Positions 1-23,878 of a stretch of DNA of 29,312 nt are shown here, piece by piece (position 1 is the first letter of the stretch; each line of letters starts with the position of its first letter). The position numbers and the translations under genes were made by a program. Source of the DNA: Epsilonproteobacteria bacterium 4484_65 (GTDB lineage Bacteria > Campylobacterota > Campylobacteria > Campylobacterales > Sulfurovaceae); NCBI GenBank assembly GCA_002085305.1, contig NATJ01000002.1, forward strand, positions 1 through 29,312, given 5' to 3'. The notes under the pieces were generated by a model that saw only the letters and a list, made by a program, of their open reading frames with translations, did not search any database and had not been told where the DNA came from.

Positions 1-1535
1 ACTGCTGCACCTAACTTATCAGGCATAGGCATAATCATCTCTTTTCCAAATGCTTTTTCAATCACAGGAACTTTAGCATGCTGTGTAGCATCCCACTCTT
101 GAAGTACTTTTTTAGTTTTCGCATCGATCAATTGACCTTTAGTTTTACCAACTTTAATGATTCTGTCAGTCTCTAGAGTATCTTTGTTGATCAAGTGAAC
201 TTCATTGTACTTATCTGGTTTACCAAGTACACAGTCAGCCCATAGGTATGGAGTATGGTGTGCTGTACCGATAAATAGACCACCACCGGCAGTTTCAACT
301 TTTTTAACTACTTTCCAAGTTGAATCCCAAATTACAACAGAACCAATATTCATACTAACAGTAGCATGAAGTTGTTTCTTTTGTCCTTTTGAGTACCAAG
401 AAGAACCTTGACCCGGGTGTGGCTTAGATTTTTTACCTGTATGCACTTTAGCAGCAAGGTTTTTCTCTTTAAAGTCAACGATACCAACAACATCAGACCC
501 TTGAGAAGCGATCATAAAGTATCTACCGAAGTCTTCACCTTCATCTTCATTCAAGAATGCATCGTGGAGGATCTTACCAATATTTGGAATATCTCCAACG
601 ATCGGGAAACCTTCTTTAGAGTAATCGATAATATATGTATGTCCACCATCTTTAAGAGCCATTGCAAAGTATGGTCCATAAGGAGTATCTGCTAGAGATG
701 CAACTCTTGATGGTCCTATTTGTCCATCAGGATCAATAACACGGCTTGTATCAAACGCTTTAAGCGGCTCAAGTGTATGTGCATCACAAAGTACTGCACC
801 ACCCGGGTTATAGTTACCAGCGATTACATATTTACCATCTGGAGATACTGCAAGACCTCTTGATTCTTGTCCTACTTGAACTGTTGCCAATGTAGGCTGT
901 CCAGGTGCACCGATATCAAACATACTTAATTTACCTGAACGAGAGATAGAGTAAGCATATCTAGGGTTTGCTTTGTTGGTTACAGTTACGTGTACCGCAA
1001 ATCCTGCTTTATGACGAGAAAGTACTTTACCGTTTGTTGAATCAATAAAGTCGACCAAAGAAGCATCTCTTTCTGTTGCAAAAGTGATATCCTTAACATT
1101 CTTAACTTCACCACCTTTGATAGCACCATCTTTAGCTACTGGATACTTTTTAGCCAATGCATCAACATCTGCTAATTTTGTCCATGTTTTTTTCACTTCA
1201 TCAAGATCAAGTGTTAACTCAACTGTATTTTTCCAGTCCATCAACCAGTCGATCATACCTGCAGCATCATCTGATGAGAATGAACTATTCCATGCTGGCA
1301 TTGCCGTATTTTCAACACCATTCATGATCTTTTCAACTAACATTTCTCTTGTTTGCTTTTTAAGTGCTTTGGGTCTAAGGTCTGATCCAACACCACCTTG
1401 GTGGATAGGTCCGTGACACCCTTGACACTCTTTCTCATACTTCGCAGCGAAATCCATACTTGATGTACCCGCCATAGCCATTGTAGCTGCAAAACTAGTT
1501 GCTGCTGCTAAACCTAAAAGTTTGTTCAATTTCAT
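1..1535 (-). CDS. nirS: Cytochrome cd1 nitrite reductase, NirS-like (C-terminus beyond left edge)
   Basis: Periplasmic haem c/haem d1 enzyme expected to reduce nitrite to nitric oxide, the step before NorCB. It reads from ATG at 1535 and stays open to the window edge (511 codons seen). Residues 1-22 form a signal peptide ending AMA. A class I cytochrome c domain follows with haem motif CQGCH at residues 37-41 and a candidate Met ligand in MPAW. The rest matches the eight-bladed d1 propeller: FAVH is the likely d1-iron His segment, and LHDAF and HPGQG match the LHD and HPGRG segments that carry the two catalytic histidines in classical NirS. The sequence diverges from textbook Pseudomonas/Paracoccus NirS, so a NirN- or NirF-like role is not fully excluded, but the haem c domain plus both His segments favour NirS. 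It lies downstream of the nor genes on the same strand. Confidence 0.85.
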   Translation of the reverse strand, partial: MKLNKLLGLAAATSFAATMAMAGTSSMDFAAKYEKECQGCHGPIHQGGVGSDLRPKALKKQTREMLVEKIMNGVENTAMPAWNSSFSSDDAAGMIDWLMDWKNTVELTLDLDEVKKTWTKLADVDALAKKYPVAKDGAIKGGEVKNVKDITFATERDASLVDFIDSTNGKVLSRHKAGFAVHVTVTNKANPRYAYSISRSGKLSMFDIGAPGQPTLATVQVGQESRGLAVSPDGKYVIAGNYNPGGAVLCDAHTLEPLKAFDTSRVIDPDGQIGPSRVASLADTPYGPYFAMALKDGGHTYIIDYSKEGFPIVGDIPNIGKILHDAFLNEDEGEDFGRYFMIASQGSDVVGIVDFKEKNLAAKVHTGKKSKPHPGQGSSWYSKGQKKQLHATVSMNIGSVVIWDSTWKVVKKVETAGGGLFIGTAHHTPYLWADCVLGKPDKYNEVHLINKDTLETDRIIKVGKTKGQLIDAKTKKVLQEWDATQHAKVPVIEKAFGKEMIMPMPDKLGAA

Positions 1536-1965: not shown

Positions 1966-3200
1966 TTAAGCTGCTTGAGCCTCATCTTGTTGAGCCTTCT
2001 TACCGATAGTAAGCATATCCACAACAAGATAGACAAATCCTACAAGTGTTACTACACCCATGATCGCTCTCCAAAGCTGTCCTTGAATATACCAAGGTAA
2101 CTCTTGAGCTACAAAGAATGCATTCCAAGTTGCACCTAGTTCAGCTCTTTCAACAAGTACTTGCTCGTATCCTGCGATAGTCAAGGCAATAGTCATACCC
2201 ATCACACCAAATGCTGTAAGGAAAACTCCCATTTTAGAGTTGAATGTTGCTTTCATACGTTTTACACCGTAAGCACCTTGGATACCTATATACATCATAC
2301 CGATAAGGATCGTTGCATAAGCACCGAAGAATGACAAGTGACCATGAGCCGCTGTAAACTGTGTACCGTGTGTATAGATATTTACTTGAGGTAAAGTATG
2401 GAAGAATCCCCATATACCTGCACCCAAGAAGTTACCAAATGCATTCAGTACGATCCAAGTCATAGCCGGACCATTTTTAATAACCGAACCTGCTTCACCT
2501 CTCTCTTTAGCTGCACCTTGCTGTTTACCCCAGTCATAAAGGACGTGAACAAACATCGCAACCAATGGAACTGGTTCCAGTGCTGAGAATAGTGCACCAA
2601 TTTCCCACCAGTACTCAGGTGTACCGATCCAGAAGTAGTGGTGACCTAAACCAAGAACACCTGATCCAAAGAGCATAAGCACTTCGATCCATAGCCACAT
2701 TTCAACGATCTCACGTTTAGCACCGATAAGTTTGATCAATGCATAAGCAGCAAGAACCCCTACAAATACTTCCCAAGTTGCTTCAACCCAAAGGTGTATA
2801 ACCCACCACCACCAGAATTGATCCATTGAGATGTTATCTGTAAAGAACATACCTGTCAGGTAAAGACCTGCTAGTGCAAGTAGATCGGCTATCATTACTG
2901 TCATGATCCCTGTCTGCTTACCTTTCATGTAAGTTGCAAACATATTCCAGTAAAAGATAAGAACAACTACAACGATACCGATATCAGCCCATCTTGGTGC
3001 TTCGATATACTCACGACCTTCATGGATCAACCAGATTGACGCTTCTGTACCAGCACCAACTTGGGAGCCAAAAATTGGATCGCGGCAACAAGTCCCAAAA
3101 GAAGCTGTGCACCAAAGAGTATAATTGCTACTCTGAAATACATCATCCCCAATTTTTGACCGTCATTGGTCAAATGATTTGTTTTAATACTAGCGAGCAT
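1966..3200 (-). pseudogene. norB: Nitric oxide reductase catalytic subunit NorB, internally deleted and frameshifted
   Basis: NorB reduces 2 NO to N2O at a haem b3-FeB centre in the inner membrane. The 5' part starts at ATG 3200 (strong GGAGGT, inside the 3' end of norC, 11-bp overlap) and encodes about 46 residues of N-terminus and first helix (LLLGLVAAIQFLAP). Near 3058-3066 the frame changes. The remainder (frame containing GAGTEASIWLIHEGREY, open to TAA at 1966) carries HLWVEATWE (FeB His and Glu), GLGHHYFWIG (FeB His pair) and THGTQFTAAHGH (b3 and b His). Compared with Pseudomonas NorB, about 70-78 residues are missing, covering the MVHTN-type segment that holds one low-spin haem b ligand. 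As written, translation would stop soon after the junction at 3027. It is either a real lesion or an assembly collapse. Confidence 0.85.
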
Positions 3201-3864
3201 GGGTACCTCCTGCTTTAAATGTTTCAACAGTTTTCGAGAAGTTTCTAGGGAAACCATTGGTGTCAATACTACTCATATGCTTAAGGAATGCTACCAAACC
3301 TTTTGCTTCATCTGCAGTGATTCCAAGATCTGGCATCATACGTGCATGTGTAGGATATTGTGATGGATGTTGTAAAAACTCTGCCATCGCCTCTTCAACT
3401 GTTGTTTTGCCAGTCATACCTTGTAGTGGTCCACCATTTTGCCATGCTGGATCTAACCAAGATTTTGTAAGATCCGGTGCAAAATATGCTCCATTACCCA
3501 AAAGTGTGTGACAGTTCATACAGTTTTTTGATTGAGAAGTAAGTTTTCCAAGGTGCAAAAGTGCTCCTGCTTCCTCTTCACTATAGTCATCTCTACCAAA
3601 GAACTTCTGTTTCTCACCAATAACTGGCACCTCAGATCCTCTTTTTGCATTAAACTTGTAATCAATATGATAATTGATAACCGTTGCTCCAGGAACTCTT
3701 TTAGTTACCCCATTTTTAAGGTCTGCATCTGTACCCATACTAATCTGCCCAAGTGTATCAAAACTAAGCCAGATAAGTAACATTACCGCAAATCCAGTTA
3801 CCCATGCCGCTGAACGACGCCAGAATGGAATACTAGTCCAAACCGAAACATTTTTGTTAGCCAT
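3190..3864 (-). CDS. norC: Nitric oxide reductase cytochrome c subunit NorC
   Basis: Membrane-anchored monohaem cytochrome c that passes electrons to NorB. The protein has 224 residues: an N-terminal membrane helix at about 20-40, a periplasmic linker, then haem motif CMNCH at 115-119 followed by TLLGNGAYFAPDL, the signature of NorC. The axial Met is probably in ARMMPD (177/178). The C-terminal segment FLKHMSSIDTNGFPRNF matches the family ending. The length is slightly above Pseudomonas NorC, and nothing appears missing. The start at 3864 has AGGAGG upstream. The norB Shine-Dalgarno and start lie within its last codons, consistent with translational coupling. Because NorC is intact while NorB is broken, the norB lesion is recent or artefactual. 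Confidence 0.93.
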   Translation of the reverse strand: MANKNVSVWTSIPFWRRSAAWVTGFAVMLLIWLSFDTLGQISMGTDADLKNGVTKRVPGATVINYHIDYKFNAKRGSEVPVIGEKQKFFGRDDYSEEEAGALLHLGKLTSQSKNCMNCHTLLGNGAYFAPDLTKSWLDPAWQNGGPLQGMTGKTTVEEAMAEFLQHPSQYPTHARMMPDLGITADEAKGLVAFLKHMSSIDTNGFPRNFSKTVETFKAGGTHAR

Positions 3865-3903: not shown

Positions 3904-4257
3904 CTATGATTGTTTTTCTTGTATCACTTCGTCTTCTGGATCATAACGTTCATCCGCTGCAGTAATTAAATAAAAATACAGATGCGGAATAAACAGGTAT
4001 GCTACCATTGTGACCATCAATATTTTCATTGTAAAGTGGTTACTTTGGATAAGAAGAGCGAAATCATACAAGAAGTAAGTTTGCAATGCCCAAAATAGAT
4101 ATCCAACAGGCATCCATTTTTTGGAAAAGTAGCCCATTTTTGAAAGGGTTATGACTGCTGCATATCCTACACCAAAAATGAGTACCAGTGTTGACTCTAT
4201 AAAGATAGGCAAGAATTGATCTAACGCGATCTCTGGACGAAGTATCAACGGTTCCAT
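3904..4257 (-). CDS. Unknown three-helix membrane protein, first gene of the nor operon
   Basis: A 117-residue protein starting MEPLILRPEIALDQF, with about three hydrophobic helices (roughly 17-38, 50-70, 78-100) and an acidic soluble tail (DERYDPEDEVIQEKQ). It starts at ATG 4257, about 55 nt after the predicted FNR-dependent start site, and ends 39 bp before norC. Being the leader gene of the nor operon suggests a role in Nor assembly, NO handling or electron supply. I do not recognise it as NorD, NorE or NorQ. NorE is a CcoIII-like five-helix protein and does not fit the size. Function unassigned. Confidence 0.8.
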   Translation of the reverse strand: MEPLILRPEIALDQFLPIFIESTLVLIFGVGYAAVITLSKMGYFSKKWMPVGYLFWALQTYFLYDFALLIQSNHFTMKILMVTMVAYLFIPHLYFYLITAADERYDPEDEVIQEKQS

Positions 4258-4484: not shown

Positions 4485-4859
4485 TTATTTGACAATACAT
4501 CTGGCAGAGAAAAAAGGTCTTTCATAATTAGGAGAGACAAAGTTATCTCCCTCCAGTCGCCACTCACGGGATTTTTTAACCATAACATACGGAGCTACTT
4601 TTCGCACCATACGACTTTCACATATGATTTCCAAATCTTTTTCAAAAGCAATCTTAACTTCTGCCATTCTGTTCATGGTCATATTATAATGCAATCCAAT
4701 CATAATTGCAATCACTAACGATACCCACATAAGCCCTCTTTTTGCAGCTCCTTTTGACATAAATGGTCTGGTGCCTACAAACAGTGTAATAAGTAGTACA
4801 ATGGCTCCCAATATAAGATATCCGCCTTCTAAAAAGAAAAAGTTTTTAAGATTCGGCAT
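4485..4859 (-). CDS. Unknown two-helix membrane protein with periplasmic-type tail, FNR-controlled
   Basis: A 124-residue protein starting MPNLKNFFFLEGGY. Two membrane helices are predicted at about 12-28 and 42-58, followed by a soluble domain of about 65 residues with two cysteines (in IICESR and SARCIVK). GAGG lies 6 nt before the ATG at 4859. The predicted leader of about 105 nt begins at the divergent FNR-dependent promoter at 4964. A hairpin terminator follows. I do not recognise the family. Sharing a regulatory box with the plus-strand pair and lying beside nir/nor suggests a role in anaerobic nitrogen-oxide respiration (inference). Confidence 0.75.
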   Translation of the reverse strand: MPNLKNFFFLEGGYLILGAIVLLITLFVGTRPFMSKGAAKRGLMWVSLVIAIMIGLHYNMTMNRMAEVKIAFEKDLEIICESRMVRKVAPYVMVKKSREWRLEGDNFVSPNYERPFFSARCIVK

Positions 4860-22804: not shown

Positions 22805-23878
22805 ATGGCTATCTCTATCACTGAAGCATTAGATATTATTTATGGCAATATAACTCCTCTTACAACAGAGATCATTCCTATCGAGATGGCAGTAGGTCGT
22901 GTGATGGCTAAAGATTCTGTTGCTACATTCGACTTGCCTAGATTTGACAACTCTGCAATGGATGGGTATGCGGTAAAGTGTATAGATGCCGACAGTACTG
23001 TCAGTAGTGATGAAGTCATCTATGCCGGAGATAATCCTCAAATGATACTTGTAGCCAAAAAAGCCATTAAGATCATGACTGGTGCTCCTATACCTGAAGG
23101 GTGTGAGGCGATCATCCCCATAGAGAATGTAAGTGTAGAAGGAGATCAAGTCACTCTTCCTTCTTCCATAGAGAAAGATGCTCATATCAGACGGTCAGGC
23201 GAGGATGTAAAAAGTGGGGAAGTCTATCTGAAAAAAGGTGAGCGTGTCACTGCCTACAGCATTGCCTTGCTGGCTAGCCAAGGCGTAACCCATCTCACAG
23301 TATATCATAAGATAAAAGTAGCTGTTTTTGGAACCGGTGATGAACTGCGACCACACTTTGAAAAGATAGAGTTACATCAACTCTATAACTCTAATACTCC
23401 TATGTTCCTTGCCCGTGCAAAAGAACTTGGCTGTGGGGTACGTTATGTTCCAAGTAGTGGTGATACCATAGAGTCTTTAGAGCCCACTGCTTTTGGAAAG
23501 ATTGGTGATACAGTCATTATAAACCTGCCCGGTAATCCTTTAGCTTCTATGGTGAATTATGAGATCTTTATCCGTGCTGTTATTCATAAAATGTCTGGTG
23601 CAAATGCTTATTTTCATGCAACGATAGAGACAGAGATGAGAGAGGACTTTACATTAAGAAAAGGTAAATATACAGTTCGTCTTGGGACTTATAATGGTAA
23701 AACATTCATGCCTCTAAAACAACAACTACCGGGGATGGTTTCTCCTATGCAAAAAGCAGATGGAATGATCATTACCACACCTGATATTGGATTACTTAAA
23801 AAAGGGATGAAAGTAAAAATGATTCCGATTTTATGGGAGTTAAATGGATGTGAAAAAGAGGACTTTTTCACAAATTAA
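22805..23878 (+). CDS. moeA: Molybdopterin molybdenumtransferase MoeA, with internal in-frame deletion
   Basis: MoeA inserts molybdate into adenylylated molybdopterin. RFDNSAMDGYAV (46-57), MTGAPIPEGCEAI (91-103) and RRSGEDVKSG (129-138) are intact in the N-terminal half, and VFGTGDEL and LYNSNTPM start the MoCF domain. At residues 226/227 (23482/23483) SSGDTIESLE joins PTAFGKIGD directly. Every normal MoeA has about 49 residues here, with the molybdopterin-binding SSGGVSVGxxD motif and the KPGK that precedes P(T/F)AFG. LPGNPLASMVNYEIF and the C-terminal domain are present. Length is 357 instead of about 405. The frame is kept, but the MoCF domain core is lost, so the protein is expected to be non-functional. 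Confidence 0.88.
   Translation: MAISITEALDIIYGNITPLTTEIIPIEMAVGRVMAKDSVATFDLPRFDNSAMDGYAVKCIDADSTVSSDEVIYAGDNPQMILVAKKAIKIMTGAPIPEGCEAIIPIENVSVEGDQVTLPSSIEKDAHIRRSGEDVKSGEVYLKKGERVTAYSIALLASQGVTHLTVYHKIKVAVFGTGDELRPHFEKIELHQLYNSNTPMFLARAKELGCGVRYVPSSGDTIESLEPTAFGKIGDTVIINLPGNPLASMVNYEIFIRAVIHKMSGANAYFHATIETEMREDFTLRKGKYTVRLGTYNGKTFMPLKQQLPGMVSPMQKADGMIITTPDIGLLKKGMKVKMIPILWELNGCEKEDFFTN

Follow-up and report, generated by a model that had tools for sequence, protein, structure and literature searches.

Taken at face value, the nor-nir locus studied here would point to a bacterium that reduces nitrite to NO and is unable to remove it, given that its norB gene is broken; the question is whether the organism has lost NorB or the assembly has. 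The face-value reading was not supported by the analysis. The locus lies at one end of the window, that is, the whole stretch of DNA analysed (29,312 bases), which makes up all of contig C113 of a Sulfurovum-like draft genome. The draft comprises 124 contigs that total 1,127,112 bases and was estimated to be 72.1% complete and 1.14% contaminated.

Organization of the nor-nir locus and position of the norB break

The following features were recognized at the locus:

3..1535, minus strand: nirS, with a cytochrome d1 domain; open for 511 of ∼572 codons, then the contig end
1760..1915, minus strand: ORF of 51 aa between norB and nirS, kept in 17 of 17 other nor-nir loci compared
3200-1966, minus strand: norB, in two frames and 214 bp short at the junction 3064|3063
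1966..3063, minus strand: norB 3′ part (frame B), 365 codons plus stop, with a COX1/NorB match
3063..3064, minus strand: norB junction with a frame switch; in relatives, the aligned flanks are 214 bp apart
3064..3200, minus strand: norB 5′ part (frame A), ∼46 codons ending in ...AAIQFLAP, with a match to intact NorB
3190..3864, minus strand: norC, 224 aa, with CMNCH and a Cytochrom_C match
3904..4257, minus strand: conserved ORF of 117 aa upstream of norC, with synteny in relatives
4485-4859: ORF of 124 aa upstream of norC, conserved and syntenic in relatives

Read along the minus strand, the genes thus follow one another as the 117-aa ORF, norC, norB, the 51-aa ORF, and nirS. No Pfam match was found for the 117-aa and 124-aa ORFs upstream of norC or for the 51-aa ORF. 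The window NorC shared 69–89% identity with its nir-linked counterparts in the loci compared. The first-pass annotation had taken both norC and nirS to be intact. This was correct for norC, which is of full length (224 aa) and retains CMNCH, and holds for nirS as far as its 511 open codons reach, the remainder of the ∼572 expected lying beyond the contig end (the nirS copy on another contig, C17, encodes 572 aa). In the coordinates of the nearest relative, G045, the window and contig C84 (L130, 4057-5215) are 258 bp apart, and C84 is probably the next contig past the nirS end of the window.

The norB break is present in the letters and does not result from chance. When frame A was read past the junction, a stop was met near 3027, with the NorB-like stretch running from 3200 down to ∼3051, and frame B was open throughout 3063-1969 (365 codons). 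The two pieces matched residues 1–49 and 116–473 of an intact NorB of 476 aa. DNA alignment with relatives showed that the missing DNA amounts to 214 bp, i.e., 71 codons plus 1 base, and since 214 is not divisible by three, the two halves lie in different frames. The loss of a block of 70–78 residues, with both halves clearly NorB, in different frames and abutting near 3058-3066, had been proposed from the letters of the window, and it was borne out when both halves were compared with intact NorB and the gap between them was measured.

The lost block comprises two membrane helices (the helix II–III region) and the histidine of the MVHIN motif, which we take to be the haem-b ligand; the helix numbering is likewise assumed from cNOR structures. 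In this respect, the earlier description of the block was right about the region and the histidine, and its motif, MVHTN, was not the usual one: MVHIN was found in 66 of the 80 named loci and TVHIN in 6, the remaining 8 not being caught by the search pattern used. MVHTN is the motif of the canonical NorB on contig C20. The cNOR ligand set is therefore incomplete in the window NorB, as the histidine of the lost block is absent from it and is present in C17, C20, and the aligned relatives. The partner of a cNOR stands beside norB, namely NorC with its c-type haem motif CMNCH, and the norB 3′ part retains the motifs HLWVE, GHHYFWIG, LEP, and THGTQFTAAHGH.

NorB in relatives and selection on the remaining codons

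NorB was covered by one match, from residue ≤14 to residue ≥469, in 77 of the 80 named loci (the best 80 of 262 encoding stretches) and in all 29 loci of a second set; the two sets overlap in genomes, and they do not represent 106 independent genomes. The three exceptions (L072, L103, and L105) all run off contig ends. Among the NorB loci looked at, the only broken copy was that of the window, and no stop codons were found in the 111 other NorB rows of the tree. In a genus-wide DNA search of 78 genomes, 48 of which gave any match, the matches of relatives split at the same norB point. The norB 3′ part was 77–89% identical to intact relatives (again among the best 80 of 262). The contig of G045 ends inside norB, so that the relatives compared offered no near-identical intact copy. 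The first-pass annotation had considered that close relatives might have the same short, split NorB; none was found among the loci that span the site.

The codons that remain were compared with those of 12 relatives, and the norB 3′ part gave pN/pS values of 0.13–0.20, as against a median of 0.136 (range, 0.070–0.196) for pairs of intact norB; the median pN was 0.086 for the norB 3′ part and 0.082 for the intact pairs. Neither relaxed selection nor further lesions were found in the remaining norB codons, and the 365-codon part has no stop. The norB codons past the junction are under purifying selection like that of intact copies, which fits either an artefact or a very recent loss.

Internal deletions elsewhere in the draft

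A survey of internal deletions was performed on 51 contigs of the draft (the window, C17, C20, C84, and 47 more; 482 kb, 43% of the draft), with the 1,227 ORFs of a 1.458-Mb contig from a near-complete same-genus genome (G040) as the protein reference. A deletion event was defined as two protein halves that abut in the draft, with the reference longer by at least 24 bp. The 279 orthologue pairs of the draft (87,031 aligned aa) contained eight such events, the reference being 44–239 bp longer, versus none in 525 pairs (150,076 aa) from 80 control loci of other assemblies (Fisher p = 2.0e-4, with pairs that are not fully independent and control loci that sample the nor-nir neighbourhood repeatedly and do not all represent independent genomes). 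Two further events, which were missed by the automatic count, were added separately and stand outside the 8 of 279:

22805..23878, plus strand: moeA, with a 144-bp in-frame deletion near codon 225, compared with G045
C6 (L211), at about 606: trmD-rplS, where a loss of 366–367 bp joins the trmD 5′ part to the rplS 3′ part

In total, ten deletion events are known in the part of the draft surveyed, with missing stretches of 44–367 bp. Five of these stretches are of similar length, 214–241 bp (norB, 214; ubiE, 216; hemC, 225; glyS, 238–241; and xseA, 239), which suggests a mechanical cause. Seven of the ten events shift the frame or fuse two genes, and those in hemC, ubiE, and moeA remain in frame. 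Approximate junction positions are 409 on C106 for glyS, 7825 and 8658 on C118 for ubiE and xseA, 6225 on C26 for hemC, and 3768 on C107 for guaA. A size check at the DNA level agreed for ubiE and trmD-rplS in more than one relative and for xseA and moeA in G045. Apart from the deletions, no other frame changes were found in the 279 pairs. There were no runs of N at the deletion junctions, a point against an assembly origin, and, by eye, the junctions share at most a few bases; long shared overlaps were thereby ruled out as the cause of bad joins, and the junctions point to no single assembler mechanism. Four of the ten events lie within 700 bp of a contig end (p = 0.011, with a cut-off picked after seeing the data).

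The moeA deletion lies in the same window as that of norB and is absent from the relatives compared. The MoeA N-terminal domain is present, and ∼48 residues of the molybdopterin-binding domain are skipped. The best same-genus moeA matches (55–79% identity) are open frames of 406–507 codons that align in two pieces.

A broader screen for any irregularity marked 36 of 275 pairs of the draft and 10 of 520 control pairs. Nine of the ten events account for ten of the 36, as trmD and rplS form separate pairs; the moeA event went unmarked. The other 26 are a mixture of extra paralogous matches, missing ends, and length differences, and may be more lesions or harmless differences. Matches with a stop numbered 23 in the controls. 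Of these, 19 had the stop within residues 1–16 of the reference norB frame, whose start lies upstream of the real gene, and 4 had it near the match end. In the draft there were four, two of them ahead of the gene start and two inside the match to the reference. The latter two, on C110 (L276, 2775-4454) and C115 (L280, 1950-2576), are possible further lesions.

The damaged genes named by NCBIfam from the reference proteins are glyS, guaA, hemC, ubiE, xseA, trmD, and rplS, and the others are ftsK (Pfam), a response regulator without a specific family, norB, and moeA. The genes glyS, trmD, and rplS are held to be essential in bacteria, and glycyl-tRNA synthetase and ribosomal protein L19 are retained even in very small genomes. 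The sole glyS found in the bin is in two pieces, and the sole rplS lacks the first 51 model positions; given that the bin is 72% complete, an intact second copy of either gene may be located in the portion of the genome not recovered. Because glyS and rplS are held to be essential, the deletions cannot all be real, and the assembly is their most likely source.

Origin of the norB break

The norB break is almost certainly an assembly artefact, since comparable gaps occur elsewhere in the draft in genes that a cell presumably cannot do without. Three observations agree with this: the deletion is absent from the relatives that span the site; the same type of lesion recurs in the draft above the rate of other assemblies; and glyS and rplS are damaged with no intact copy found, an observation that is not absolute in a bin of 72% completeness. 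The draft would have been built with spurious joins, each dropping between tens and a few hundred bases, and one such join would account for the 214 bp gone from norB. The missing 214 bp would then exist in the organism, with low coverage or bad gap joining as the presumed cause, and the organism most likely resembles its relatives in having a normal norCB of full length next to nirS. The first-pass annotation had offered either a biological loss or an assembly error; the second was upheld by the ten deletions, some of them in genes held to be essential, and by the constraint on the norB codons past the junction; the first was not, as norB shows no sign of decay and an intact cNOR cluster of the lineage is present on C20.

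A real and recent deletion of 214 bp in the strain, tolerated by means of a second NO reductase, was considered together with the other norB genes in the draft, which were found when the genome was searched for a second norB, as had been suggested. Contig C20 (L115, 1085-6126) carries intact canonical norC and norB together with norQ-like, norD-like, and COX3-family genes, the norQ-like product having a CbbQ/NorQ C-terminal domain and the norD-like product a VWA domain. C20 is native to the lineage of the window, as its norD-like protein shares 94% identity with the G045 counterpart over 415 residues and its DNA matches G045 at 90.6% identity over 3.6 kb. Both NorB types, canonical and nir-linked, occur in 10 of 60 same-genus genomes when partial genes are counted. 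A build-up of NO for want of any NO reductase is therefore ruled out by the intact norCB cluster on C20, and the toxic accumulation of NO that had been predicted from the broken NorB, barring another NO reductase, does not follow.

Contig C17 (L114, 453-6427) carries a second, intact cluster of the order ORF107-norC-norB-nirS. Its NorB falls in a tree group of 11 (99% SH-aLRT support), the other ten members of which have no Sulfurovum label, two of the genomes being from another family. Its upstream regulator, ORF107, and NorC are 89–95% identical to a Sulfurospirillum-labelled draft (L095), and its NirS is 92% identical to a same-genus genome (G053). DNA identity to G045 was 84–90% for the window and C84 and 78% for C17 (over its nirS side). 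C17 as a simple backup of the window strain was thus ruled out by its NorB grouping and its lower identity to G045; the contig is either a contaminant or an acquired mosaic. Its norB and nirS may be foreign to the bin and are not usable as proof of a backup.

With C20, and possibly C17, as the second reductase, a real recent deletion of norB would be tolerable, and purifying selection on the remaining codons would look just as intact; the same-genus genomes that hold both NorB types also speak for it. However, the nine other similar deletions, several of them in genes held to be essential, would need a separate explanation, and no norB deletion was seen among the relatives spanning the site; this reading is very improbable. 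The 214-bp loss could also be a polymorphism of the natural population, in which nirS and norC are kept, NorB is gone, and NO is removed by the second cNOR or by neighbours, and this, too, is given only a small chance.

If the lineage were host-restricted or dying and its genome decaying throughout, norB would be one pseudogene of many; the ten deletions in the 43% surveyed of the 1.13-Mb draft would be in keeping with this, and the genes with stops on C110 and C115 might be damaged as well. Such decay is contradicted by the damage to the genes for glycyl-tRNA synthetase and ribosomal protein L19, which, as noted above, even very small genomes retain, and by the 279 pairs, in which no frame changed beyond the deletions, as well as by norB itself, where selection is not relaxed; decay of this kind is scarcely credible. 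A functional short NorB, or a re-start product, encoded by the 3′ part of 354–365 codons is just as hard to credit, for although frame B is open, has a possible TTG start, and keeps the catalytic motifs, it has neither the first membrane block nor the haem-b ligand, and no short form occurs among the relatives spanning the site.

With an assembly artefact as the preferred reading, it should be considered that a draft with only 1.14% contamination still has internal deletions in several housekeeping genes. Claims of pathway gaps made from this draft need to be checked against the reads or close relatives.

Comparison with known systems

The best solved relative of the norB 3′ part of the window is chain B of PDB 3o0r (E = 1.3e-66), a cytochrome c NO reductase presumably from Pseudomonas aeruginosa. 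The motifs HLWVE, GHHYFWIG, LEP, and THGTQ..HGH of this enzyme are all kept in the window norB, whereas part of the first membrane block is missing from it. In gNOR, an active-site D replaces E according to Table A4 of PMC8756737; the norB 3′ part, which was compared with cNOR sequences only, aligns with their HLWVE and LEP stretches. Compared with the nir-linked NorCB of Sulfurovum and other Campylobacterota, the window shares the order ORF117-norC-norB-ORF51-nirS, but norB is whole in those loci wherever the site is spanned, whereas the window copy is 214 bp short and out of frame. As for the proposed origin of the break, many putative bacterial pseudogenes stem from assembly errors, for which the assembler, platform, and coverage matter, according to the portions of Cooley and Wright (2024; PMC11017572) drawn on here. 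The pseudogenes described in those portions arise from frameshifts and internal stops, whereas the lesions of the present draft are missing stretches of 44–367 bp.
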